In this document: piece by piece, positions 11,763 through 46,294 of the stretch
How the letters are laid out: each line of letters starts with the position of its first letter
Position numbering within the stretch: the first letter of the stretch is position 1
Assembly (NCBI RefSeq): GCF_006352025.1
Contig: NZ_CP040937.1
Coordinates: forward strand, 124,001 to 188,000
DNA: 64,000 bases
From: Hymenobacter sp. DG01
Lineage (GTDB): Bacteria > Bacteroidota > Bacteroidia > Cytophagales > Hymenobacteraceae
Reading direction: 5' to 3'
The notes under the pieces: model-generated
The model's database searches: none
Told to the model about the DNA's origin: nothing
The model's input: the letters and a program-made list of their open reading frames with translations, nothing else
Program-made: the position numbers and the translations under genes

Positions 11763-12700
11763 CTACGCGTTCTTGGCCGGTGATTTGAGCCCGAGCACAG
11801 TTAATAGCAGACCGGCCGGGTTCTTGTTGGCTTTAATCTTATCCGTTTTCAGACGGTACATGAATTTGAACAGCTCATTTACGAGTCCTTCGTCCCCGAT
11901 GATCTGGGCAACGAGCTTCTGGTCCTTGATGCCGAGCGACTCCAGGTGCCGGCGAGCCATCAGGAGCTTCGCCTGCTCGGGGGATTCGTCGAACGGAATC
12001 GGGAGCTGCTTGGGCTGCTGTTTGGTCACGTAGAAGCGCACGGCGTTGAAGGAGCGCCCCTGCTTGAGCAGGGTGTACCCGATCTTGAGCTCCGTATTCT
12101 CATTGATCTGGCGCACGGCAATGTCGAGTACCTTGGCCTTCAGGTCGCTGATGCGCTGAAACTGCTCCGGCTCTCTCCCCTTGGGATCTTTGAGCTTAAG
12201 CATGTGCTTGAACTCATCCAGATCGTAGGTTTTCGTTTCCCCGATATCCTTCCACTGCGAGGCCAGCTGGTAAATACGCTTGGCATACTTGCTGGAGATC
12301 TTCAGGGCGGAAAATAGCTGGTAGGAGGTGAAGTTATTCTTCAGCTCGAACAGGTACGGCCGAATGTCTTCCGAAAGGCGAATTCGCAGGAAGCCCTGGC
12401 CCTTGACGTACTCCACCTTCTGAAACATCCACAGCTGCACGTACGAATGGTCGTTCTCCACCTCGAACATGCGCGAGCCCATGGACTCGGTGGCTTCCTT
12501 CAGTTGCTTGTAGTGCCACTCACGCCCGGTCATGGCCACTACCTCGTTCATGTGAATTTGGTACTCCTGATTGGGCTTATCTCCCGGCGTAGCTTGGAGA
12601 GCAGAAAGAATAGGAGATCCAGCTGACAAGCTGTGTAATCATAGCGGGCCGTAGTGATGGCATTATGCTGCCTGACTTCCAGTGATTCAGATGCTTCCAT
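11763..12700 (-). CDS. rep: Rep_3-type replication initiator with apparent -1 frameshift
   Basis: Initiator protein of the Rep_3 (RepB) superfamily, which binds iterons to start plasmid replication. The main frame (12629 down to 11763) contains both winged-helix domains, for example YELF-like LRIRLSEDIRPYLFELKN, SSKYAKRIYQLA and LDEFKHML. Its only in-frame start is a TTG at 12629 with an unnatural leader. The true family N-terminus is present in another frame from ATG 12700: MEASESLEVRQHNAITTARY, then DYTACQLDLLFFLLSKLRR. The two join if one base is added near the GGGAGA around 12580. No classical slippery heptamer is obvious. It is either a sequencing error, a real mutation with internal initiation, or recoding. 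Confidence 0.8.
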
Positions 12701-12771
12701 AGGTAGGCGGGATAGATGACAAATATAGAGAGATAGCTAAAAACGACAACCGTTTTTACAAGGCGTTTTTA

Positions 12772-12863
12772 ACTGATAAAAAGTCGTTTTTACCTTACAT
12801 AATGACTGATAAAAAGTCGTTTTTAACTGATAAAAAGTCGTAGTTCGCTGATAAAAAGTCGTA
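12772..12863. repeat. Iteron array of the replication origin
   Basis: Four direct copies of the core CTGATAAAAAGTCGT start at about 12773, 12806, 12827 and 12848. The last three are spaced about 21 bp apart (two helical turns) and the first is offset by 33 bp. The array sits just upstream of rep, as is usual for Rep_3 plasmids, and is followed by a long AT-rich stretch (about 12980-13110) suited to strand opening. Confidence 0.88.
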
Positions 12864-13157
12864 CTAAAAGCTTGTAATAAGCAGTAAAACAGCAAGTTGT
12901 GAGCCTTGCAAATAGACAAATACCATAAAAATACACAAGTTGTTGATACGCGCGCAAGTCCAAAACAATAGCTTTTAAGGTATAGGTATATAACGTGGGC
13001 GGTTGGGAGAAAAGCAGCAAAAGGAGAAGCACAAAAAAGTTCATAATTAAATTTTGTGATTGTATTATTTTAATACTTAATTATACTATTTATTTATTGG
13101 GTTTCATGTGTTACATACTCCCTTAAGGTTTCTTACCATTCCGGCTAGCGGGTGAAC

Positions 13158-30421: not shown

Positions 30422-30430
30422 ATGTTATAT

Positions 30431-31399
30431 ATGTCCACCGAAAGTCAGCTGCCCGTACTGCCTACTTCGCCCGGTGCGCAGGTGCCCGCTCACCTGGTGG
30501 CATCCACCTCTCGCTACGTCGAGTCCGGCCTGCGCGGGGCGGCTAACACCGTGCGCGCCTACGCCGGCGACTGGAAGCGCTTCTCGGCTTGGTGTGAGCT
30601 CCACGAGCTTGCCGCGCTGCCGGCTCCGGTCGAAGCAGCGGTTGGGTTTCTGACGGAGCTGGCCGACGCGGGGAAAAAATTTGCCACCATCCAGCGCCAC
30701 GCCGCCGCCATTGCCAAGGCTCACGAGCTGGCCGGCGTGGATTCGCCTACAGCCGACAAGAAACTTAAGGTGCTACTCAAGGGCATTGCCCGCGAAATCA
30801 AGACCCGCCAAAAGCAGGCCCCGGCATTTTCGCTAGCTAACTTCAAGCGTACCGTCAAGAGCATCGATGTAACCGGGTCGGCTGGATTGCGCAACCGGGC
30901 CCTGCTGCTACTGGGCTTTACCGGAGCGTTTCGCCGCTCGGAGCTGGAGGCGCTTAACATCGAAGATCTGGCCTTCGATGAGGAAGGGTTGGTCGTAACG
31001 CTGTCACAGAGTAAGACCAATCAGATGGGGCAGGCCGAGGAGAAGGCCATTTTCTATTCGCCGGATTCGGCCCTGTGTCCGATCCGGTCACTGCAGGCCT
31101 GGCTGAGGGTACTCGGTCGCACGGAAGGTCCAGTGTTCGTATCGCTGCGCAAAAACAATCAGGTCACCACCCGGCGCATGACTACCAAGTACACCAACCT
31201 GATCGTGCAGCAGCTCTTAGGGCCACAGTTCACGGCGCACTCGTTGCGGGCCTCCTTTGTGACGGTGTCCAAGCTCAACGGCGCCGATGACTCCAAGGTG
31301 ATGAACCAGACGAAGCACAAAACGAGCGCGATGATTCGGCGCTACACCCGGCTGGACAATGTGCGCCAGCATAATTCGGCCAAAGAACTGGGCTTGTAG
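30431..31399 (+). CDS. Tyrosine recombinase (Cre/Xer-like)
   Basis: A 322-residue site-specific recombinase. The N-terminal SAM-like DNA-binding domain contains NTVRAYAGDWKRFSAWC. The catalytic set is visible: Arg of AFRRSELEAL (about 168-169), H-x-x-R in HSLRASFVT (His 270, Arg 273), a KHKT segment and the nucleophile in RRYTRLD (Tyr 305). Single recombinases of this kind on plasmids usually resolve multimers or serve a genomic island. ATG 30431 was preferred over the in-frame ATG at 30422 because the latter adds only three AT-rich codons. It is transcribed alone. Confidence 0.88.
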   Translation: MSTESQLPVLPTSPGAQVPAHLVASTSRYVESGLRGAANTVRAYAGDWKRFSAWCELHELAALPAPVEAAVGFLTELADAGKKFATIQRHAAAIAKAHELAGVDSPTADKKLKVLLKGIAREIKTRQKQAPAFSLANFKRTVKSIDVTGSAGLRNRALLLLGFTGAFRRSELEALNIEDLAFDEEGLVVTLSQSKTNQMGQAEEKAIFYSPDSALCPIRSLQAWLRVLGRTEGPVFVSLRKNNQVTTRRMTTKYTNLIVQQLLGPQFTAHSLRASFVTVSKLNGADDSKVMNQTKHKTSAMIRRYTRLDNVRQHNSAKELGL

Positions 31400-33973: not shown

Positions 33974-35608
33974 ATGACACCACCTTCGAGCTATCTACCT
34001 GCGGCTGCTTCCCCGCGCCGCCAACTCCTGGATATCGGGTTACGCTTGCTGGAAGAGCAAGGATTTCAGCAGGTATCCCTGGTGGACATTGCCACGGCCG
34101 CCGGGCGGCCCCTGGCGGATGTTTACCGCCATTTCGGTACTAAAAGCGACTTTGTGCTGGGCTTTTACCAGCGCCTGCACGACGAGTTGGAAGTGAAGAT
34201 CTCGGACCTGCCAATCGGCTCGGTAGCATTACGCTTTCAGACACTAGTGCGCTGGAAAGTAGCCTTGCTGCTGCCCCAGCAACGCTTGCTTCGCTCGCAG
34301 CTGGCCAATCTGCTCGACGCGGAGGCACCCGCGGGCGTGCTCAGCCCTGAAACGGAGAGCATCCGGCTGCGCGGGCTGGCCTTATTTGAACTCGTGGTGA
34401 GCGGGGCCGCGGATGCTCCCGCGCCGGAACTACGGTCAGCCTTGGCTCAGACCCTCTACGCGGCTCATTGGGGCGTGCTGGCGCTGCGCCTGCTTGACCG
34501 CTCAGCCGATGGAAAAGCAACTGATGAGCTGCTGCAGCTGTTCGGGGCCGGGCTCGAGCTTACCACGCCTAGCCTGGCTACCCTGCTGGGGCCGCTGCTG
34601 TTAGGGCAGGTATCCGGGGCTGTAGCCCATTTCCTGAATCTGGACCCGACTGTTGACTTCGACGTGGCCCGCCGCATTGCCAAAGTGCTGCTACGGCATC
34701 GCAAGGTGCTGCCAACCGGCCCCGACGAGACGGTCACCAATGAAGAGCAAAGTATTGCTCTGCACCTGCCTAAGCTACACTACTACATCCGCCAGGGCCT
34801 GCCCATCCACCTGATTTTGCCCGCCTTTCCGGCCAAGTCGCCCAACCCCCAGAAGGTACTGGGCAAGCTCCCGGACCTGGGCGAGGAAATTGCGCTGACC
34901 TTTCTGCAGAGTCTCTGCGACGAGATCCGGCAGGTATACGCGCCCGGCGCCCGGCTGAGCATCTGCGCCGACGGGCGCGTCTTCGCCGACTTGGTGCAGG
35001 TCAGCGACGCGGACGTGTCGGCCTACAACGAGGAGTTGAAGCGGCTGCTCCGGCAATTGAATACGCCCGATCTGGACGTGGTGAACCTGGAAGACCTGCT
35101 GGCTACGGATTCATTCGACAAGGCCCGCACCTGGATTGCCGGCCAGTACGGGGAGCCGTTGGAGGATCTCAAAGCCCGGGTGCGGGACACGGAGCACCAC
35201 CGGGCCATGTTCAATGGCATTCACCGCTTCGTCTCCGAAGACCGCCTGACCCTGGAGCCGACCAAAAGCAAGAGCCGCGTAAAGGAGGAAAGCAAGGAAG
35301 TGGCGTACGAGGTTATCCGGCGCAGCAATGCCTGGACCCGCCTGCTGGCCCAGGAGTTCCCACACGCCGTACGCCTGAGTATTCACCCGCAGCACCCCTA
35401 CTCCGACAAAATTGGCCTGCGCATGACCCGGGCCGTGGATGACTGGATCACGCCCTGGCACGGGGTGGTGCTGCTGCGCGATAACGAGTATGTGCTGCTG
35501 AAGCGCTACCAGGCCGAAGCAGCCGGGGCCGAGCTGGTGCAGAAAGACGGCCGGGCCAGTCACTTCGTCGCCCGCCCGGAAACTGTACCAAACAAGCTAA
35601 ATTTCTAA
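33974..35608 (+). CDS. TetR-PvcA fusion: isonitrile synthase with N-terminal regulator domain
   Basis: A 544-residue protein with two parts. Residues about 15-70 form a TetR-type helix-turn-helix (LLEEQGFQQVSLVDIATAAG, then VYRHFGTKSDFVLGFYQRL) followed by a TetR ligand-binding-like helical region to about 230. From about 235 to the end it matches the DIT1/PvcA isonitrile synthase family: LPAFPAKSPNPQKVLGKLPD (about 284-303), CDEIRQVYAPGARLSICADG and RVFADLVQVSDADVSAYN. These enzymes turn the alpha-amino group of Tyr or Trp into an isonitrile with ribulose-5-phosphate as carbon donor. The fusion to a TetR domain is unusual and could let the enzyme sense its own product or bind DNA. It is followed by a zinc-ribbon gene (14 bp) and a PvcB-like gene. 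Confidence 0.85.
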   Translation: MTPPSSYLPAAASPRRQLLDIGLRLLEEQGFQQVSLVDIATAAGRPLADVYRHFGTKSDFVLGFYQRLHDELEVKISDLPIGSVALRFQTLVRWKVALLLPQQRLLRSQLANLLDAEAPAGVLSPETESIRLRGLALFELVVSGAADAPAPELRSALAQTLYAAHWGVLALRLLDRSADGKATDELLQLFGAGLELTTPSLATLLGPLLLGQVSGAVAHFLNLDPTVDFDVARRIAKVLLRHRKVLPTGPDETVTNEEQSIALHLPKLHYYIRQGLPIHLILPAFPAKSPNPQKVLGKLPDLGEEIALTFLQSLCDEIRQVYAPGARLSICADGRVFADLVQVSDADVSAYNEELKRLLRQLNTPDLDVVNLEDLLATDSFDKARTWIAGQYGEPLEDLKARVRDTEHHRAMFNGIHRFVSEDRLTLEPTKSKSRVKEESKEVAYEVIRRSNAWTRLLAQEFPHAVRLSIHPQHPYSDKIGLRMTRAVDDWITPWHGVVLLRDNEYVLLKRYQAEAAGAELVQKDGRASHFVARPETVPNKLNF

Positions 35609-35622
35609 CCAATACGTATCCA

Positions 35623-35883
35623 ATGGCGCTGCACCTTTGTCCAACCTGTCAACAGAAGGATTTTTTCTGGGGAATGTCCGAAGACGAAAATGGTCAGGAT
35701 GCGACCCTATGGGGATGCGCAGCGTGTCGATATAGTGCGTACGAATATGACGAGCGCCTGGCCCGCCCTTGTCTGCGCTGCCACAACGGAGAAGAGCTGC
35801 TTCTGGTTGATCAACAGCGCCGCTACTGGTGGTGCTCTTATTGCAACCATACGACGACCATCGAGCTACTACACCCCCAATAA
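35623..35883 (+). CDS. Double zinc-ribbon protein in the isonitrile operon
   Basis: An 86-residue protein with four CxxC pairs (CPTC, CAAC, CLRC, CSYC), enough for two treble-clef zinc ribbons. It is rich in Trp/Tyr (RRYWWCSYC) and has no membrane segment. It sits 14 bp after the isonitrile synthase and 102 bp before the oxygenase/prenyltransferase, so it is probably co-transcribed. It may bind nucleic acid or be an assembly factor. No function is known to me. Confidence 0.7.
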   Translation: MALHLCPTCQQKDFFWGMSEDENGQDATLWGCAACRYSAYEYDERLARPCLRCHNGEELLLVDQQRRYWWCSYCNHTTTIELLHPQ

Positions 35884-35985
35884 CCCGCAGAAGCTAATGC
35901 AGCATTAAGATCCGTAACACCCTATCGTATCTCACCCCTCTTTTGTACCTGCGGAGCACATTTTCGCGCTATTCTACGTCCTGCT

Positions 35986-37752
35986 ATGCCTACTTACTTC
36001 CTTACACCCCAAACGCCCTTTGGATTGCTCGTCCAGGCCGATTCGCCCGGCCAAACCATTGCCGGTATACCCGCCGACCAGATCCGGGCGTGGGTGCAGG
36101 AGCACCGACTGCTGATTTTCCGCGGGTTTAGGCTGTTTGATAAAACGCAGTTCGCCCTTTACGCGCAGCAGTTGGGCGAGCCGCTGCAGTGGCCCTTCGG
36201 GGCCATCAACGAACTCAAAGTAAAAGCTGACGCCAAGAACTACCTCTACACGCCCAGCGCCGTGCCCCTGCACTGGGACGGGGCCTTTGTGGGCCGCATT
36301 CCGTACCTGATCTTCTTTCAGTGCCTGAAAGCGCCCCGCGCCGAGGACCGGGGCGGCACCACCTTCGCCGACACGGGCCGGGCGCTGGCCCGGGCCACGG
36401 CCGCGCAGCGGGCCCGATGGGCCCAGGCCACGCTCCGCTACCGGACCGAGAAAATCGTGCACTACGGCGGCACGCTCACCCAGCGGCTGCTGCAGGACCA
36501 CCCGGTTACGGGCGAGCCGACCATCCGTTTTGCCGAGCCCGTGCACGACCTCAACCCCGTTACGGTCGAAGTGCTCGACGCCACCGAAGAGCAGCAGGCG
36601 GCGCTGATTGCAGAGCTGCAAGCTGCCCTGTACGCCCCGGAGGTGTTCTACATTCACACTTGGCAGGACAACGACATCGTGCTGGCCGATAACCACGTGC
36701 TGCTGCACGGCCGCGACGCGTTCCTGAACCCCAATGAGCGCCACATTCAGCGCATCAACCTGCTGGCCCGGCCGGCGCACCGGGGCGTGGCGCAGTTTCT
36801 GAAAAACAGCAAAACCCTGCGCCGCACCGAGTTTCTGATTGCCGAAATCCCCATTTTCCTCATCCCCATCTTTCTCAGCGCCGAGAATTTCCGCTTCCTG
36901 AAAAAGCCGGAGCTGTACGCGGGGCTGGCGGGCATCTACCTGCTCTTCAATTTCGGCGACATGGTCAACGCCTACGCCGACCGCCGCGTGGATGCCGTCT
37001 ACAAAAGCCACTTGTCCAACGCCATTTTCGAGCTGGGACCGGCCGGGGTGCGCTGGCAGATGCGGGCTTCGGTGGCAGGCACCGTGCTCATCAGTCTGTG
37101 GCTGACGTGCCAGACCGGGCGCTGGCAGTTTGTGCCGCTGACCGTTATCGGCTGGGCGCTGGGCTTCCAGTACTCCTGGCGGCCGCTGCACTTTAAGTCG
37201 CGCGGGCTCTGGCAGCTGGCCGCGCAGTGGGCCGTTATCTTTTTCGGGCCCATGGCCTACACGGGCAGTCTGGTGACGCACTTTCCCCGGCCGGCGGTAC
37301 TCACCATGGCGGGGGCTTACGGGCTGCTGCAGGTGGGCGTGCTGATGCTCAACAACGCCGAGGACTACACCGAAGACCAGGCCGCGGGCCTCAACACGGC
37401 CATTGTGGCGCTGGGGCTGCACCGCAGCATGCGGGTAGCGCAGGCCCTGACCGGCGGGGCCGGGCTACTGGCGCTGGGCAGCTTCGCGTACCTGTTCCGG
37501 GCCGAAAAACTGCCCAAAGCCGCCTATGTGGCCTTGCTGCCACTGGCCGGGGCCGTGGCCTACGTGGCCCAGGGCTACGAGACAATCAACCAGAAAATAG
37601 AGGATAAAGACGAGGCCGCCGCCACCGCTGTGCTCAAGGAAAACGGGATGCGGGTGCCCCAATGGCTGAAGGCCACGGCCTACACCAGCCTGCTGGCCGC
37701 CGGCGTGCTTTTTGCCGCCCGCGTGCGGCGGCCCCGGACCCAGCAGTCCTAA
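35986..37752 (+). CDS. PvcB-like oxygenase fused to UbiA prenyltransferase
   Basis: A 588-residue two-domain enzyme. Residues 1 to about 265 are a TauD/PvcB-type Fe(II)/2-oxoglutarate oxygenase: HWD at 96-98, distal His in LLHGRD (241) and the 2-oxoglutarate Arg in RHIQRINLL (256). Residues about 275-588 are an integral-membrane UbiA-type prenyltransferase with NxxxDxxxD (NAYADRRVD, Asn 328, Asp 332, Asp 336), a second Asp box DYTED (460-464) and about eight hydrophobic helices. PvcB enzymes desaturate amino-acid isonitriles, and UbiA enzymes attach prenyl groups to aromatics. One chain would couple both steps at the membrane. I know of no precedent for this fusion. Confidence 0.85.
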   Translation: MPTYFLTPQTPFGLLVQADSPGQTIAGIPADQIRAWVQEHRLLIFRGFRLFDKTQFALYAQQLGEPLQWPFGAINELKVKADAKNYLYTPSAVPLHWDGAFVGRIPYLIFFQCLKAPRAEDRGGTTFADTGRALARATAAQRARWAQATLRYRTEKIVHYGGTLTQRLLQDHPVTGEPTIRFAEPVHDLNPVTVEVLDATEEQQAALIAELQAALYAPEVFYIHTWQDNDIVLADNHVLLHGRDAFLNPNERHIQRINLLARPAHRGVAQFLKNSKTLRRTEFLIAEIPIFLIPIFLSAENFRFLKKPELYAGLAGIYLLFNFGDMVNAYADRRVDAVYKSHLSNAIFELGPAGVRWQMRASVAGTVLISLWLTCQTGRWQFVPLTVIGWALGFQYSWRPLHFKSRGLWQLAAQWAVIFFGPMAYTGSLVTHFPRPAVLTMAGAYGLLQVGVLMLNNAEDYTEDQAAGLNTAIVALGLHRSMRVAQALTGGAGLLALGSFAYLFRAEKLPKAAYVALLPLAGAVAYVAQGYETINQKIEDKDEAAATAVLKENGMRVPQWLKATAYTSLLAAGVLFAARVRRPRTQQS

Positions 37753-37798
37753 TACTGCTGGCAATCATACCTCCCACCTGTATCGCCCCCCGCTCGGC

Positions 37799-38983
37799 AT
37801 GGCTGACCTGCATTCTGCTTCCCCCTTCACCGGATCTGATCCAGCGGAGCATATCTACGATTGCGCCATCATTGGGGGCGGGGTGGCTGGACTGACGCTG
37901 GCCGTGCAGCTGGCCCAGGCCGGGCGGCGGGTCGTGCTGTTCGAGAAGGAAACGTACCCGTTCCACCGCGTCTGCGGCGAGTACATCTCGCTGGAGAACT
38001 ACGACTTTCTGTGCCGCATCGGAGTGCCGCTGGCCGAGATGGACCTGCCGAGAATGACGCGCTTCACCGTGTCCTCCCCTACCGGGGTGGCGCTGCACCA
38101 CCCCCTGGATATCGGTGGCATCGGCATCACGCGCTACGAGCTGGATTTGCTGCTGGCCCGGCTGGCCGCGGCGCACGGGGCCAGCATTCAGGAGGGCACC
38201 AAAGTGACGGATGTGGTCTTTGCAGGCGACGTGTTCACCCTCACCACGGCCGCAGGCGCGACCGTTCGAGCCCGCACGGCCTGCGGAGCCTGGGGCAAGC
38301 ACGCCAACCTCGACGGCAAGCTGCGCCGCCCGTTTCTTGCATCCAGCCGGCAGGGGCGCCAGTTTGTGGCCGTGAAGTACCACCTGCAGCTGGCCGGTGG
38401 CTTTCCGCAGGATTTGGTGGAGATGCATAATTTTCGCGATGGCTACTGCGGGCTCTCGCCGGTACCCGGGGGGGTAACCAACTGCAGCTACATCAGCGAT
38501 GTGCGCAACCTGCGCGCCCACGGCAACAGCGTGGCGGAAATGGAGCGCCAGGTGCTCATGCAAAACCCCTTGTTGCGCCCCTACCTGGAGCAGGCCCAGC
38601 GGGCCGGACAGGCGCCCATCGTCATTTCCCAAATCACGTTTCGGGAGCGCTCCACCGTGGATGCCCACGTGCTTATGCTGGGCGACGCTGCCGGCACTAT
38701 TGCCCCGCTAGCCGGCAATGGCATGAGCATGGGCATGAACGCCAGCTTCCTGCTGCACGGCCTGCTGCTTGAGTTTCTGGAGGGCCGCCTGTCCCGCGCC
38801 GAGTTGGAGCAGCAGTACACGCAGGCCTGGCGCAATCTGCTGAGCCTGCGCATCAGAGCCGGCCGCCTCATTCACCAGTTTTTCGGCCGCCCGGCCCTGA
38901 CAACGCTAGCAATTCGGGCCCTCAAGGGCCTGCCGGGAATTACTGATCAGGTGCTGAAGCTCACCCACGGCAAAAGCTATTGA
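37799..38983 (+). CDS. FAD-dependent oxidoreductase (geranylgeranyl-reductase/halogenase-like)
   Basis: A 394-residue flavoprotein. The N-terminal dinucleotide-binding fold is YDCAIIGGGVAGLTLAVQLA, followed by FEKETYPFHRVCGEYIS (as in geranylgeranyl reductase-type and related flavoproteins). The second FAD motif GDAAGTIAPLAGNGMSMGMN lies near residues 295-320. There is no WxWxIP halogenase signature. It could reduce prenyl double bonds or hydroxylate an aromatic. The ATG at 37799 was chosen because it starts just before the fold, 46 bp after the UbiA fusion gene. An earlier in-frame start would overlap that gene. It completes the putative isonitrile operon. Confidence 0.85.
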   Translation: MADLHSASPFTGSDPAEHIYDCAIIGGGVAGLTLAVQLAQAGRRVVLFEKETYPFHRVCGEYISLENYDFLCRIGVPLAEMDLPRMTRFTVSSPTGVALHHPLDIGGIGITRYELDLLLARLAAAHGASIQEGTKVTDVVFAGDVFTLTTAAGATVRARTACGAWGKHANLDGKLRRPFLASSRQGRQFVAVKYHLQLAGGFPQDLVEMHNFRDGYCGLSPVPGGVTNCSYISDVRNLRAHGNSVAEMERQVLMQNPLLRPYLEQAQRAGQAPIVISQITFRERSTVDAHVLMLGDAAGTIAPLAGNGMSMGMNASFLLHGLLLEFLEGRLSRAELEQQYTQAWRNLLSLRIRAGRLIHQFFGRPALTTLAIRALKGLPGITDQVLKLTHGKSY

Positions 38984-41052: not shown

Positions 41053-43218
41053 TCACATCCGTATGGCAATTGTGCCGAGTAACTCCATGGCGTGCACCAA
41101 GGCGTGGCGTTCGGCAGCGGTAAGCGACAGTTGTTCCTGCACCTGAGATAAGCTGTTGCGGGCAGTAAGGGCTAATGATTGAATGGTTTCGTGAGGTTGA
41201 AAACGCAAATGGGCCAACATACCCGTAAGTGCTACCGGCTCCTCGCAAGTAGGAGTTGTCGGCGTAGAGATAGGTGGTGGTACAGGCATAAGCGGTGATA
41301 AATGCGGGACATGCATTGCCTGGAATGCAGATCGAACCGTCTCCGGTACGATTTCTTCGTCATGTCGCAAGTAGTAATCCGTCGACCGGGCGAACTGGTG
41401 ACCTAGCCATTGCTGCACGTGTCGTCGGGGTACGCCAGCCTGGTAGAGTTGAGTTGCCAATGTCGCCCGGCCCCGGTGGCACGTAATACGTCCCCGCGCG
41501 TCGTAATTGCTGATGCCGGCTTTTCGGCACAGGAGAGGGATTAATACTTGGTTGATATAATTAACGCTTAGTGGGCGGCCTCGCCAGACAAATAATAACC
41601 CCCGCCGCCGCTCTTTAGGCGATAGCAGGAGGCGAAGACACCTTTCCCAGGCGTCCAGCGCACGGGCCAGCCGCGTATCGACAGCTTTGTCGAACGGACC
41701 GCTGGATTTGTTAGCGGGTACACGCAGGTTAACAATGCGACGGGCCCGTTTGGCCGACGAACGGTCAAAGTGTTGAGTTGCCGGTAGCCATCGGATGCAC
41801 CCTATTGGTAGGCGCACAATTTCGTCGCGGCGCAGCCCTGCAAATAGCCAGACGGCCGCTAACGCACGCACCATTTCCAACGGGTATGTGGCCTCGACGT
41901 GATAGCCTTTCGGTAACTCAGTTGGTCGGGGCAAATCTGCTTGCGTCAGTGAAAGCCCGGCTTGCTCCAGTCGCTTCCAAATGTCCCATTGGATGACCTG
42001 TGGGTTTGGGCCACACGCTGCCAGCAGATCGGGCGGGGTCCTTAAAAAAATGGCCGGATCGAAGGCGTCGGGCAGCAACTTGGCAGCTTGGCACTCGGTG
42101 AAAAAGCAGCGGACTGCATTGATGATCTGCACCCGCACTGCTGCGCGCAATTCCTCACCCCAGCGTGTGCCTTTGCGCGGGATTTGATCGCGGTTCCAAT
42201 CGCCGACTTTCATGGTGCACACGGCCTCGACGAAGGCCTTGGCTATGCTCGCTGTCCACTGGGCGGGATTGTTTGCCTTGGGAAATACAGCCATTGTCCA
42301 CCGGCCCGCTTTGGCTATGCGCGACCGTTGCGACGCAACAGTTCGTTCTTGCCCATACGTGAGTTTACTCCACTCCTCAATCATCTCCTTCCAAGCAACT
42401 GGCAGCGTATCCTGGGGCTTGGGGCGAGGGCGCTCACGAGGTGGCTTAGGCACCGGCGCAGCAGCTAACGGTTGGGATAGAATGCCAGCTAGCTGAAGTG
42501 CTTGCACGACCGCCAAACAGCCCTGTTGCATTCCCTTCGAGGGGGCACTCAACTGGTAGACCTCTTCCATGACATCTAGCGTCAACTCTTCTAGCATACA
42601 ACTGCGGTTGAGCAGCAACGCCCATGCTGTGCAGACACGAAGACCAGGAATATTGAGGTAATTAACGCCCGCCTCAGCTAATTTATCCGCAACAGCGTAC
42701 CGCGCCCCGTTTACTCGTTTACGCCCGAAAATGCTGCGTGCGGAGGCTGAGAGGTTGCAGTCGGTGATGAACCGATGAATGGTAATGCCTCCTAGCAAGT
42801 ACGCGCAACTGATCAATTGATGTCGTAGATTAGCCTGAGGCAATTGTCGTTCTCCGTGAATGACCCCTTGCCGATGTGCGTAGTCCTGCTGAGTTACACC
42901 AATCGTTTCTAGCCATAAAGTTGTGTCCCACGCCCATAATGTGGTCTGGCGCACATACATTTCTTTCAAGAGCAGAACACAACAGGCATAGGAGTTCCTC
43001 CCGACCTCGTCTGGGTGATTACAATGCGCGAAGACCGCTTTAATGGGACGGATGAGCCGCTCCAAGTACTGAAATTCTTGTTTCCTGTCTCGTTCGTAGC
43101 GTTTCCCCATAATTGGCGGTCGGCTGACCCACTGGGATAGCGCATATTGCTCCAATGGTGTCAAACTCACGCCGCGATCCAACACGTGAGACAGGGCTGA
43201 CCATTCTGGTAAGTTCAT
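41053..43218 (-). CDS. Large tyrosine recombinase (Tn554 TnpB-like)
   Basis: A 721-residue integrase. The C-terminal catalytic domain shows Arg in LFAGLRRDEIVRL, a His-Arg cluster in GRITCHRGRATLATQLY, and GHQFARSTDYYLRHDEE carrying the last His and the nucleophilic Tyr. The long N-terminal half is specific to this class. It overlaps the following recombinase gene by 4 bp (ATGA). Two adjacent tyrosine recombinases of about 350 and 700 residues is the arrangement of Tn554 TnpA and TnpB. A TnpC-like third gene was not recognised. Confidence 0.85.
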   Translation of the reverse strand: MNLPEWSALSHVLDRGVSLTPLEQYALSQWVSRPPIMGKRYERDRKQEFQYLERLIRPIKAVFAHCNHPDEVGRNSYACCVLLLKEMYVRQTTLWAWDTTLWLETIGVTQQDYAHRQGVIHGERQLPQANLRHQLISCAYLLGGITIHRFITDCNLSASARSIFGRKRVNGARYAVADKLAEAGVNYLNIPGLRVCTAWALLLNRSCMLEELTLDVMEEVYQLSAPSKGMQQGCLAVVQALQLAGILSQPLAAAPVPKPPRERPRPKPQDTLPVAWKEMIEEWSKLTYGQERTVASQRSRIAKAGRWTMAVFPKANNPAQWTASIAKAFVEAVCTMKVGDWNRDQIPRKGTRWGEELRAAVRVQIINAVRCFFTECQAAKLLPDAFDPAIFLRTPPDLLAACGPNPQVIQWDIWKRLEQAGLSLTQADLPRPTELPKGYHVEATYPLEMVRALAAVWLFAGLRRDEIVRLPIGCIRWLPATQHFDRSSAKRARRIVNLRVPANKSSGPFDKAVDTRLARALDAWERCLRLLLSPKERRRGLLFVWRGRPLSVNYINQVLIPLLCRKAGISNYDARGRITCHRGRATLATQLYQAGVPRRHVQQWLGHQFARSTDYYLRHDEEIVPETVRSAFQAMHVPHLSPLMPVPPPISTPTTPTCEEPVALTGMLAHLRFQPHETIQSLALTARNSLSQVQEQLSLTAAERHALVHAMELLGTIAIRM

Positions 43219-44267
43219 TGCTGCACCTCATTGCGTTGAGCGAGGCGCACCAGCGCTTGTTCGATACTGTGTTGTGTGGCATCGGGCAACGGATGCAGAT
43301 ATATGCCAGTGCTACTTGGGTGTTGGTGACCAGCATATAAGGATACGTACGGGGATTCCCACCCCTTTGACGCGAAGACGGTAATGCCCAAATGGCGCAT
43401 GGTATGCGTCTTGAGTTGAGGCAGGCGTGTGCGTTGGGCAACACGTTTAATCACGCTTGCCCAAGTCCACACGGAGATGCCCTGCCCCCGGTTGCGTTTG
43501 GATTCCGATATAAACAGTGCCTTATCGGATCCTTGAGCACCATAGTGGTAGAGGTTTAGGTATTGCTGCAGTAAGTGCTTAGTACCTTCGGAATAATATA
43601 CCCGGCGCGCACGTTTCGTTTTGGTAGTTTCAGCACGGATGTACACCATATTGCCTCCACTACCCCGTGCGACATCGCTAATGCGCAGAGCACATAATTC
43701 TGCCCGGCGTAGGGCACATTCAAATGCCAGAGATAACATCAACTGGTTGCGCAGTGACTCTGTCTGCATAACATCCAAGATTCGTCCCCATTGTTCTCCA
43801 TCCGGTATCCACGATATATGCTGCTTGACGGGTAATTCGCCCGCGCAACTGAGGCCGCGTTTTCGTTTTGCGGAGAATCCGTGCCGGATAGGAATGGTAG
43901 TGCGAATGCTTTCCTCCTTTAGATAGAGGTAATAGAGTCGCAACACGGCCAACCGATGTTTGCGACTGCCGTCCGACAATTGTCGTTGTAAGGGGCGATT
44001 ATTTCGAATAATGGGTCGGTCAGTTAGCGCACGGAAGTAGCCTACGACGTCCTGTGATGTAGCGTGGATATAGTCAATCTGCTCTTGAGCACAATGCGCT
44101 AAGTAGTCAGATAATACGTATGAATATGATAAAATCGTACTGTCGGCGTTATATAAGGCTGATTTGAACATCAACCAGTTTAACACAGTAGGGTGGTCCG
44201 CAAAACGCGGTGCGAGCTTAGTAAAGTCCATATTGGCAGACGAAAAAACTATGTCAGTTGTCTGCAA
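43215..44267 (-). CDS. Tyrosine recombinase (Tn554 TnpA-like)
   Basis: A 350-residue integrase, the first gene of the pair. The N-terminal core-binding domain includes ILSYSYVLSDYLAHCAQEQI. The catalytic residues are in ECALRRAELCALRI (Arg), HTMRHLGITVFASKG (His and Arg) and AGHQHPSSTGIYLHPL (His and Tyr). Its length fits TnpA of Tn554. Both proteins would be needed for excision and insertion of the element. The element ends were not located, since Tn554-type elements have no inverted repeats. Confidence 0.85.
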   Translation of the reverse strand: MQTTDIVFSSANMDFTKLAPRFADHPTVLNWLMFKSALYNADSTILSYSYVLSDYLAHCAQEQIDYIHATSQDVVGYFRALTDRPIIRNNRPLQRQLSDGSRKHRLAVLRLYYLYLKEESIRTTIPIRHGFSAKRKRGLSCAGELPVKQHISWIPDGEQWGRILDVMQTESLRNQLMLSLAFECALRRAELCALRISDVARGSGGNMVYIRAETTKTKRARRVYYSEGTKHLLQQYLNLYHYGAQGSDKALFISESKRNRGQGISVWTWASVIKRVAQRTRLPQLKTHTMRHLGITVFASKGWESPYVSLYAGHQHPSSTGIYLHPLPDATQHSIEQALVRLAQRNEVQQ

Positions 44268-44520: not shown

Positions 44521-44934
44521 TTAGAACGGCAGATCGTTGTCGTCGTCGGAAGTGAAAGCTCCTGCTTCATTATTGGCCGACTGGCTGCCACCGGTAGTTG
44601 CGGCCGCCGCCTTTTTCCCCACCAGCTCGATGCTAGTAACCCGGACTTCAATGGTTGGTACCCACTCTTTCTGCGCATTCTGATAGCCGCTGGCTTTGGG
44701 CGTACCCTGAATCAGAACCTGCTGCCCTTCTTTGAGGTAGTCGGCAATCGTGGTTTTCTGGCCTTCCTTGCGCCAGATGGTGCAGTCGTACCAGGTAGTC
44801 TGCTCCACTTTCTCGCCGCCTTGCTTGGTGTAGTGTTCATTAACGGCTACGCTGAAGCCGATGGCTTTTGAGCCTTTTACATCGCGTACTACGGCATCTT
44901 TGCCGAGGTTGCCAGTGAGGGTGATCTGATGCAT
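44521..44934 (-). CDS. ssb: Single-stranded DNA-binding protein
   Basis: A 137-residue SSB with a canonical OB fold (MHQITLTGNLGKDAVVRDVK, FSVAVNEHY, TTWYDCTIWRKEGQKTTIAD, YLKEGQQVLIQGTP). A flexible linker follows, ending in the acidic protein-interaction tip DDDNDLPF. Plasmid-borne ssb genes lie in the leading region of conjugative plasmids and help incoming single strands. It starts after a 167-bp gap that shares features with other gaps in this region. Confidence 0.95.
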   Translation of the reverse strand: MHQITLTGNLGKDAVVRDVKGSKAIGFSVAVNEHYTKQGGEKVEQTTWYDCTIWRKEGQKTTIADYLKEGQQVLIQGTPKASGYQNAQKEWVPTIEVRVTSIELVGKKAAAATTGGSQSANNEAGAFTSDDDNDLPF

Positions 44935-45101: not shown

Positions 45102-46124
45102 TTACGGGGTGGTTAATTCCTCGTCGAGGGGACCAGGCACCTCGTCATACAGTAATCCATCCAGCAACCGGCCCGCGCCGGTCTTGCCTACCCGCCAGAC
45201 GTGGGTACTGTCGTTTGGCTCCCAGGGCTGATCTCCGGATCGGCCGTAATCGCCGCCGCACAGCTGGCCCTGGGGCACCCATTCCCCCCACTGTTTGAAT
45301 AAGAAACTCACGCCGGCTTCCTGGCACTGCTGCTGCAGGCTGCGCACCCAGGCCGGATGCACCGGCCGGGCTTTCGGCCCCGACTCTCCCCCGACAATTA
45401 CCCAATCCAGGCAATAAGGCAACTCGTTGCCGGGCTGATCAAACGCTGACTGTTCCCGGACCGTCAGCGGCTTCAGGGGCAGGCCAGTCATGGGGTGCTG
45501 AAACCCGAAAATCTCATCCGTAACCCGGATGCGGGTTAGATCCACTGGGCCTAACAGGGGCTCCATGCTGGCAAAGTGGCGCACGGCCGGAATGCTCAGC
45601 AGCCACTGTAGGCGGGAATCAGCAGTAGCTTGATTTTCAACGGAAGTGCCCAGGAATACATTAGCGGGTGGCTCACCCTGCATCCAGTTGTAGAGCCAGG
45701 GGCCAACCGGGTGCATAAAAGGGGAGGTGGCAAAGGCGTACGAAATGCCTTCCATTACCAATTCCGGGCGCTTGGTCAGCAGCAGCCAATCCAGGTGCGG
45801 GGTATCCATAATGAGCATGAACAGCCGTAGGCGCCAGGGTTTCAGCTCATCCCGATCCTCGAATACATCCCCCAGCGAAAGGCAGAAAACCCGCCGCCGC
45901 TCTCCGTCCTGTTGTGCCTGCTTGTTCCACTGCACCGGCAGCTGCCAGTATTTCTCCGCTGCCGGCACTCGCTGGCCCCCAGGTCCCCATTCACCGAGTA
46001 CGGCCGGATTGCGCTTACTCTGCACCTCAGCGTAACAGTTTTTGCAGCCCGCTGATACTTTCTCGCAACCCCGCCAAGGATTAAATGTGTGGTGCGCCCA
46101 TTCGATTTTAGTGTCTTTACCCAT
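45102..46124 (-). CDS. DUF5131 (phage Gp37/Gp68-like) protein
   Basis: A 340-residue protein of the DUF5131 family. It begins MGKDTKIEWAHHTFNPWRGC with a Cys cluster CEKVSAGCKNCYA that resembles a radical-SAM CxxxxxxCxxC site. Later come FCLSLGDVFEDRDE, DWLLLTKRPE and WVIVGGESGPKARPVHPAW. Members occur on phages and plasmids, and their reaction is not known to me. The start at 46124 is preferred over an upstream in-frame ATG at 46205, because the extension would overlap a small membrane-protein gene and does not match the family start. Confidence 0.82.
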   Translation of the reverse strand: MGKDTKIEWAHHTFNPWRGCEKVSAGCKNCYAEVQSKRNPAVLGEWGPGGQRVPAAEKYWQLPVQWNKQAQQDGERRRVFCLSLGDVFEDRDELKPWRLRLFMLIMDTPHLDWLLLTKRPELVMEGISYAFATSPFMHPVGPWLYNWMQGEPPANVFLGTSVENQATADSRLQWLLSIPAVRHFASMEPLLGPVDLTRIRVTDEIFGFQHPMTGLPLKPLTVREQSAFDQPGNELPYCLDWVIVGGESGPKARPVHPAWVRSLQQQCQEAGVSFLFKQWGEWVPQGQLCGGDYGRSGDQPWEPNDSTHVWRVGKTGAGRLLDGLLYDEVPGPLDEELTTP

Positions 46125-46129
46125 CTTGG

Positions 46130-46294
46130 CTACATTTTTTTGGATACTCGTTTCCAGCGACGGACTTGTTTCTGCTGGGCCAGAATCTGAACTACTTCCC
46201 GCCATATGCCAGCGTAGAAGGGTAAAACAAGGCCCACAAACAGCGCGTAGCTCAGCAGCACGAGCAGTAGAAGGAATAGTAGATGTGGGAGCAT
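46130..46294 (-). CDS. Small membrane protein, 54 residues
   Basis: A short ORF with an N-terminal hydrophobic stretch of about 25 residues (starting MLPHLLFLLLLVLLSYALF) and a basic C-terminus (QKQVRRWKRVSKKM). It ends 5 bp before the preferred start of the DUF5131 gene and begins 25 bp after the methyltransferase stop, so it fits neatly into the operon. Single-pass membrane peptide of unknown role. Confidence 0.55.
   Translation of the reverse strand: MLPHLLFLLLLVLLSYALFVGLVLPFYAGIWREVVQILAQQKQVRRWKRVSKKM

Follow-up and report, generated by a model that had tools for sequence, protein, structure and literature searches.

The question raised by this locus is what a bacterium could make with an isonitrile synthase fused to a transcriptional regulator and an Fe(II)/2-oxoglutarate (2OG) oxygenase fused to a membrane prenyltransferase. 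The stretch analysed (hereafter "the window") comprises 64,000 nucleotides of Hymenobacter sp. DG01 (GCF_006352025.1, contig NZ_CP040937.1, positions 124,001 to 188,000), and Pfam searches recovered in it the layout that a first-pass annotation had read from the letters and their open reading frames (ORFs): a TetR-PvcA fusion (gene 1), a PvcB-UbiA fusion (gene 2) and, after them, an oxidoreductase dependent on flavin adenine dinucleotide (FAD; gene 3) (Table 1). We consider it probable that these genes constitute a compact, self-regulated cassette for a prenylated isonitrile; the isonitrile is probably tyrosine-derived, while the prenylation, its site and the product are predicted. No description of this cassette was found in the open PMC literature, a scope that excludes subscription papers.

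Both fusions, each as one open frame, are present at all 18 loci considered here, i.e. the window, the complete plasmid pHsw1 of H. swuensis, 15 Hymenobacter records and one distant Bacteroidota metagenome-assembled genome (MAG; L017), so that the same two fusions do recur in other genomes. Sixteen loci (15 from Hymenobacter and the MAG, labelled Flavobacteriales UBA6057) were found by a scan with gene 2 of a one-genome-per-species collection, which required exact short peptides and hence reaches close relatives only, and pHsw1 (L019), a complete circular record with 96.8% identity, was found by a plasmid search. Within Hymenobacter, gene 1 is 63-95% and gene 2 77-97% identical to the window; in the MAG the values fall to 40% and 47%, respectively. 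The gene table of pHsw1 labels the two proteins "L-tyrosine/L-tryptophan isonitrile synthase family protein" and "TauD/TfdA family dioxygenase", naming one part per gene, and the fusions are therefore invisible in the annotation.

The C-terminal half of the gene 1 product, which had been assigned to the DIT1/PvcA family, indeed matches PF05141 (DIT1_PvcA) with 266.9 bits (cut-off 26.4; residues 269-521, profile positions 2-272 of 273) and the PvcA structure 3e59 from the Protein Data Bank (PDB) over residues 232-532 (E 1.7e-75, 257.9 bits). The blocks PAFPAKSPN, DGRVF, NLED, RLSIHPQ and DDW-TPWHG align with 3e59, and their residues are mostly invariant across the 18 loci. Homology strongly suggests that this half would form the isonitrile of an aromatic amino acid, L-tyrosine being the likeliest substrate.

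The N-terminal part is a complete TetR protein by alignment, with a helix-turn-helix (HTH) domain above the Pfam cut-off (TetR_N, 30.4 bits, cut-off 24, residues 18-61) and a C-terminal domain, residues 7-194 aligning with the TetR chain 3c07 (E 6.7e-14). Median ratios of nonsynonymous to synonymous substitution rates (dN/dS) are 0.22 for the HTH, 0.26 for the C-terminal part of TetR, 0.18 for PvcA, 0.16 for PvcB and 0.14 for UbiA (only pairs with dS of 0.05-1.5 were taken, i.e. 69, 121, 132, 135 and 135 of the 136 pairs for the five stretches), and the TetR part evolves under constraint. Production of a separate PvcA from an internal ATG start is not supported, as there is no Met among residues 195-268 of the window protein, nor in nine of the 18 sequences. 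The TetR part may let the first enzyme double as repressor of the operon, sensing substrate, product or metal; such a fusion would work like PutA or BirA, the analogies for a repressor joined to an enzyme. In the MAG (L017) we also noticed a spacer-less 16-base palindrome, AATGAACATGTTCATT, about 24 bases before the start of gene 1, a possible operator that is not found in the Hymenobacter loci.

The oxygenase half of gene 2 matches PF02668 (TauD) with 117.7 bits over residues 26-257, and its residues 9-267 match PIsnB (7tcl; E 7.4e-56, 193 bits) and PvcB (3eat; E 9.8e-52, 180 bits), PIsnB being the best PDB relative both by sequence and by VIA-align Z. In the alignment with 7tcl, whose numbering reproduces the published PIsnB residues (PMC9467999), H101, D103, H250, R265 and W74 of PIsnB correspond to H96, D98, H241, R256 and W69 of the window protein, all invariant in 18/18 loci; the HxD...H metal triad and the Arg and Trp at the carboxylate are thus all present, and the active-site motifs picked out at first reading are borne out here as they are by the alignment of gene 1 with 3e59. 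Regiochemistry aside, homology strongly suggests that this half would desaturate the side chain with Fe(II) and 2OG.

As to the kind of desaturation, PMC9467999 describes K/R107 with N/H188 as the mark of vinyl-isonitrile enzymes and L107 with C188 as that of isocyanoacrylate enzymes, and reports that single changes at these sites left selectivity unswitched. The PIsnB positions M105/Y106/K107/N188 are A100/F101/V102/A183 in the window, and all 18 loci have A-F in place of M105-Y106, with V/I at residue 102 and A at residue 183. Neither published pair is present, so the kind of desaturation is not readable from the sequence; judged by alignment, a third signature is particular to this family. 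The hydrophobic residue at position 107 is nearer to PvcB than to PIsnB, and the carboxylate may be kept, because the residues marking decarboxylating enzymes are absent. A decarboxylated vinyl isonitrile with a prenylated phenol, i.e. the logic of rhabduscin and the hapalindoles with a new transferase, would fit the slightly higher whole-domain score with PIsnB than with PvcB, but it goes against the residues found at both decarboxylating marker positions in all 18 loci, and we regard it as unlikely.

The second half of gene 2 has the Pfam signature of UbiA (PF01040, 53.7 bits, cut-off 34.2, residues 308-536), the UbiA fold and the two Asp boxes that the first-pass annotation had read; one alignment of the UbiA parts takes in 10 of the 18. 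We propose that the desaturated intermediate would be handed to this half in the membrane and receive a prenyl group from a prenyl diphosphate. Chlorophyll synthases, the closest named relatives though by weak scores, esterify a carboxylate, and the carboxylate is therefore a possible acceptor besides a phenol oxygen or a ring carbon. The succession of isonitrile formation, desaturation, prenylation and redox tailoring suggested previously stands as far as the domains and fusions go, and the order itself is plausible.

Gene 3 matches FAD-binding families in Pfam, its start being more likely the ATG at 37799 than the TTG at 37712. Its best NCBIfam match is the geranylgeranyl (GG)-reductase superfamily (TIGR02032; 96.9 bits, below the cut-off of 158.8), matched by all 15 gene 3 members compared, and the QhpG monooxygenase also scores below its cut-off (81.6 bits); flavin halogenases and monooxygenases head the list of PDB neighbours. 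A structure model of gene 3 was not used, its mean predicted local distance difference test (pLDDT) score being 45. Relatives at E 1e-25 or better occur in 55 of 247 class genomes (up to seven first-look candidates scored per genome). Among 14 of them whose surroundings were analysed, a type III polyketide synthase (PKS) lies nearby in 12, a methyltransferase in 12 and a UbiA in 10, Pfam identities of these neighbours being checked on L066 only; two stretches (L075, L076) contain none of the three and two others (L065, L078) lack a nearby UbiA.

The relatives from type III PKS clusters are up to 47% identical to gene 3, and in a midpoint-rooted tree the 15 sequences from isonitrile cassettes fall on a single branch (100/100) among 27 relatives, of which 24 are distinct, with support of 87/66 and 94/95 at neighbouring forks and some long branches; the alignment covers 15 of the 17 gene 3 sequences, leaving out L011, whose alignment ends at residue 376, and L016, whose frame is broken. 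Gene 3 thus falls inside a family that we term here "type III PKS-associated FAD oxidoreductase". The genome of the window itself has a chromosomal paralog (L065, 6278-7396, minus strand), 44% identical, which has a type III PKS and a methyltransferase as neighbours and whose best match is FAD_binding_3. The tree position of gene 3 points to phenol-lipid metabolism as the probable source from which it was recruited. Reduction of the prenyl chain, put forward in the first-pass annotation, remains one option for this enzyme; since gene 3 is nested in the type III PKS-side family, oxidation of the phenol ring is the simpler guess, and we favour the latter as the predicted last step. The cluster of UbiA, type III PKS, methyltransferase and FAD oxidoreductase is recurrent in Bacteroidota (L066-L074, L077), and no paper on it was found in the open PMC literature. 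A close kinship of its UbiA with the fused UbiA was considered and is not supported by a profile search: the fused-UbiA profile gave seven matches at E 1e-3 among the ORFs of 23 loci, all in loci from the UbiA search.

The tail of chlorophyll is made by ChlG esterification and ChlP chain reduction, and the cassette may be compared with that pair: UbiA would use geranylgeranyl diphosphate to esterify the retained carboxylate, and reduction of the chain would fall to the FAD enzyme. The best UbiA family (BchG/ChlG), the best NCBIfam match of gene 3 and the missing PIsnB-type decarboxylation markers agree with such a scheme. We find it doubtful, given that members of the FAD family lie next to type III PKS and methyltransferase genes, at two loci (L065, L078) with no UbiA nearby, that the GG-reductase-type scores are below cut-offs, and that the paralog in the same genome best matches FAD_binding_3.

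The UbiA part might instead be mainly a membrane anchor, or act on something other than an isonitrile (e.g. a quinone), which would leave the product unprenylated. Its similarity to characterised enzymes is modest, and a membrane fusion alone could serve localisation; on the other hand, eight residues in and around the two Asp boxes (N328, D332, D336, K340, D460, D464, G468 and T471) do not vary in 18/18 loci, and among the five stretches measured UbiA shows the lowest median dN/dS. This is more than a mere anchor would need, and we hold this explanation to be improbable. Assembly or frameshift artefacts, against which the first-pass annotation had cautioned, are refuted as the source of the fusions, with next to no probability left to them, by their presence at 18/18 loci, 17 of them public records and one a complete circular plasmid, and by open frames of at least 538 residues in 16/16 PF05141-bearing genomes of the genus.

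Several observations weigh against a prenylated isonitrile as the product. The NCBIfam model for L-tyrosine isonitrile synthase (NF045653) gives 275.1 bits, below its cut-off of 600, so that the substrate is not assigned by that model. The aromatic pocket of the oxygenase reads A-F-V/I instead of the M-Y-K of PIsnB, and mutation of the latter enzyme to A-F-A seemingly abolished ligand binding (PMC9467999). In the gene 2 structure model pLDDT is below 50 at residues 63-106, 243-280 and 332-346, among others, so that the stretch next to the first Asp box and much of the oxygenase active site are poorly modelled, and both active sites were consequently judged by sequence. The nearest named UbiA family, BchG/ChlG, scores 52.7 bits, below its cut-off of 212.3, and the fused-UbiA profile finds no match in the 14 loci around gene 3 relatives. 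In the 220 bases upstream of gene 1 (counted from its assumed start) the 18 loci share no operator or palindrome: the 8-mer GCCCGCCA occurs on either strand in 6/18, no 9- or 10-mer is found in six or more, and perfect inverted repeats with 6-base arms are present in 11/18, including the window (at -199), none being common to all. The MAG has no FAD gene adjacent to the fusions, only a 40% homolog elsewhere in the same genome, and gene 3 is therefore not an obligate part.

With these points taken into account, the prenylated isonitrile remains our preferred reading. A more specific version of it can be offered tentatively: the cassette may represent an undescribed class in which the PvcB-type desaturase hands a carboxylate-bearing isonitrile directly to the fused ChlG-like UbiA for esterification or prenylation, the synthase doubles as TetR repressor of the operon, a trigger enzyme responding to its substrate or product, and the products are meroterpenoid isonitriles made at the membrane.

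The cassette is patchily distributed in the genus. PF05141 was found in 16 of 120 Hymenobacter genomes, the window's own counted, every one with a frame long enough for the fusion; in overlapping samples, it is present in 8 of 291 genomes of the order (all Hymenobacter), in 2 of 395 of the phylum (both Hymenobacter, one being the window's own) and, within the family of the MAG, in a single genome out of 35, which is that of the MAG. Gene 3 adjoins gene 2 at 17/18 loci, its frame being broken in one of these; in the latter, Hymenobacter sp. CCM 8763 (L016), gene 3 is split into two frames (11768-13000). No gene family in the flanks is common to more than 4/18 loci. The window's replicon (306,172 bases) has ParA-type (PF13614) matches at 2.2 kb, 132.9 kb (partial) and 272.5 kb, which makes a plasmid the most likely identity of this 306 kb replicon, in line with H. 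swuensis; a chromosome-sized contig (G083:C1) carries another copy of the cassette, 2.36 Mb in. The cassette looks like a mobile or often-lost three-gene unit in a mobile-looking neighbourhood (Table 1). Between genes 1 and 2 there is a zinc-ribbon-like ORF, overlooked in the first-pass annotation and present only in the window and pHsw1 (1/17 other loci).

Table 1. Features of the cassette and its surroundings (positions in the window)
Feature	Position	Strand	Remark
Third tyrosine recombinase	30422-31399	+	Opposite side of the cassette from the other two
Gene 1, TetR regulator fused to PvcA-type isonitrile synthase	33974..35608	+	544 aa
TetR part	33974..34588	+	Residues 1-205 (boundary chosen by us): HTH 18-61 and C-terminal part
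PvcA/DIT1 isonitrile synthase domain	34667..35569	+	Residues 232-532
Zinc-ribbon-like ORF	35623..35883	+	86 aa; two zinc-ribbon/finger Pfam matches just under cut-off
Gene 2, PvcB-type Fe(II)/2OG oxygenase fused to UbiA prenyltransferase	35986..37752	+	588 aa
PvcB/IsnB domain	36010..36777	+	Residues 9-264
UbiA membrane domain	36808..37725	+	Residues 275-580
First Asp box, N328xxxD332xxxD336	36967..36993	+	Invariant 18/18; aligns with the ChlG box
Second Asp box, D460YTED464	37363..37377	+	D460 and D464 invariant 18/18
Gene 3, FAD-dependent oxidoreductase	37799..38983	+	394 aa; GG-reductase/monooxygenase superfamily
Two adjacent tyrosine recombinases	41053-44267	-	721 and 350 aa
SSB	44521-44934
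DUF5131	45102-46205

A plasmid search with gene 1 gave 14 records, 13 of them outside Hymenobacter; at their best place, 12 of these 13 match the PvcA part only (from query residue 232 on) and one the TetR part only. The surroundings of three of the 13 were inspected; one of these records, like a Burkholderia locus, comes with no gene table, and the other two, Streptomyces plasmids (L088, L089), carry a stand-alone isonitrile synthase of 312-313 residues. Its neighbours there are a P450, AsnB, an MFS protein and an iron-type ABC importer, i.e. a different layout of isonitrile cluster, and no UbiA is listed within 8 kb of the synthase in the PLSDB gene tables, which are incomplete.

Natural isonitriles have roles in virulence and metal acquisition (PMC7949033). 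Metal binding or antibiosis would be fitting roles for an isonitrile anchored in the membrane, and a pathway with a fused membrane UbiA would extend isonitrile chemistry to lipid-like molecules. A TetR domain on a biosynthetic enzyme would couple transcription to enzyme occupancy with unusual directness, the question of what decides between decarboxylating and plain desaturation gains a natural third signature from these oxygenases, and the cassette is an easily tested set of two or three genes.

Among known systems, pvcABCD of Pseudomonas aeruginosa (paerucumarin) has the same succession of PvcA and PvcB, i.e. formation of an aromatic isonitrile followed by Fe/2OG desaturation, and includes a flavin-type tailoring enzyme; we know of no prenyltransferase in it. 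Its PvcA and PvcB are separate proteins and so is its regulator, whereas in the cassette TetR is attached to PvcA and UbiA to PvcB. A dedicated regulator next door is common to both systems, that of the pvc operon being the separate LysR protein PtxR (PMC3639982). The isnAB system of Xenorhabdus and Photorhabdus (rhabduscin) has in PIsnB (7tcl) the best PDB relative of the cassette oxygenase, with K107/N188 and M105-Y106 replaced in the latter, and its tailoring is glycosylation, in contrast to UbiA and the FAD enzyme. BchG/ChlG is the nearest named UbiA family, yet the cassette protein scores far below the cut-offs and is fused to an oxygenase. The type III PKS-methyltransferase-FAD(-UbiA) clusters of Bacteroidota share relatives of gene 3 and often a UbiA; we noticed no isonitrile gene in them, and the profile of the fused UbiA misses theirs. 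To our knowledge, the known prenylated isonitriles (hapalindoles) are made with ABBA-type enzymes. The hpi/amb/wel clusters (hapalindoles, ambiguines, welwitindolinones) resemble the cassette in combining an isonitrile synthase, an IsnB-like oxygenase and an aromatic prenyltransferase; as the first-pass annotation had stated and PMC4236562 confirms, the prenyltransferase, P1, belongs to the ABBA superfamily and is without the (N/D)DxxD motif, whereas the cassette has a membrane UbiA fused to the oxygenase.

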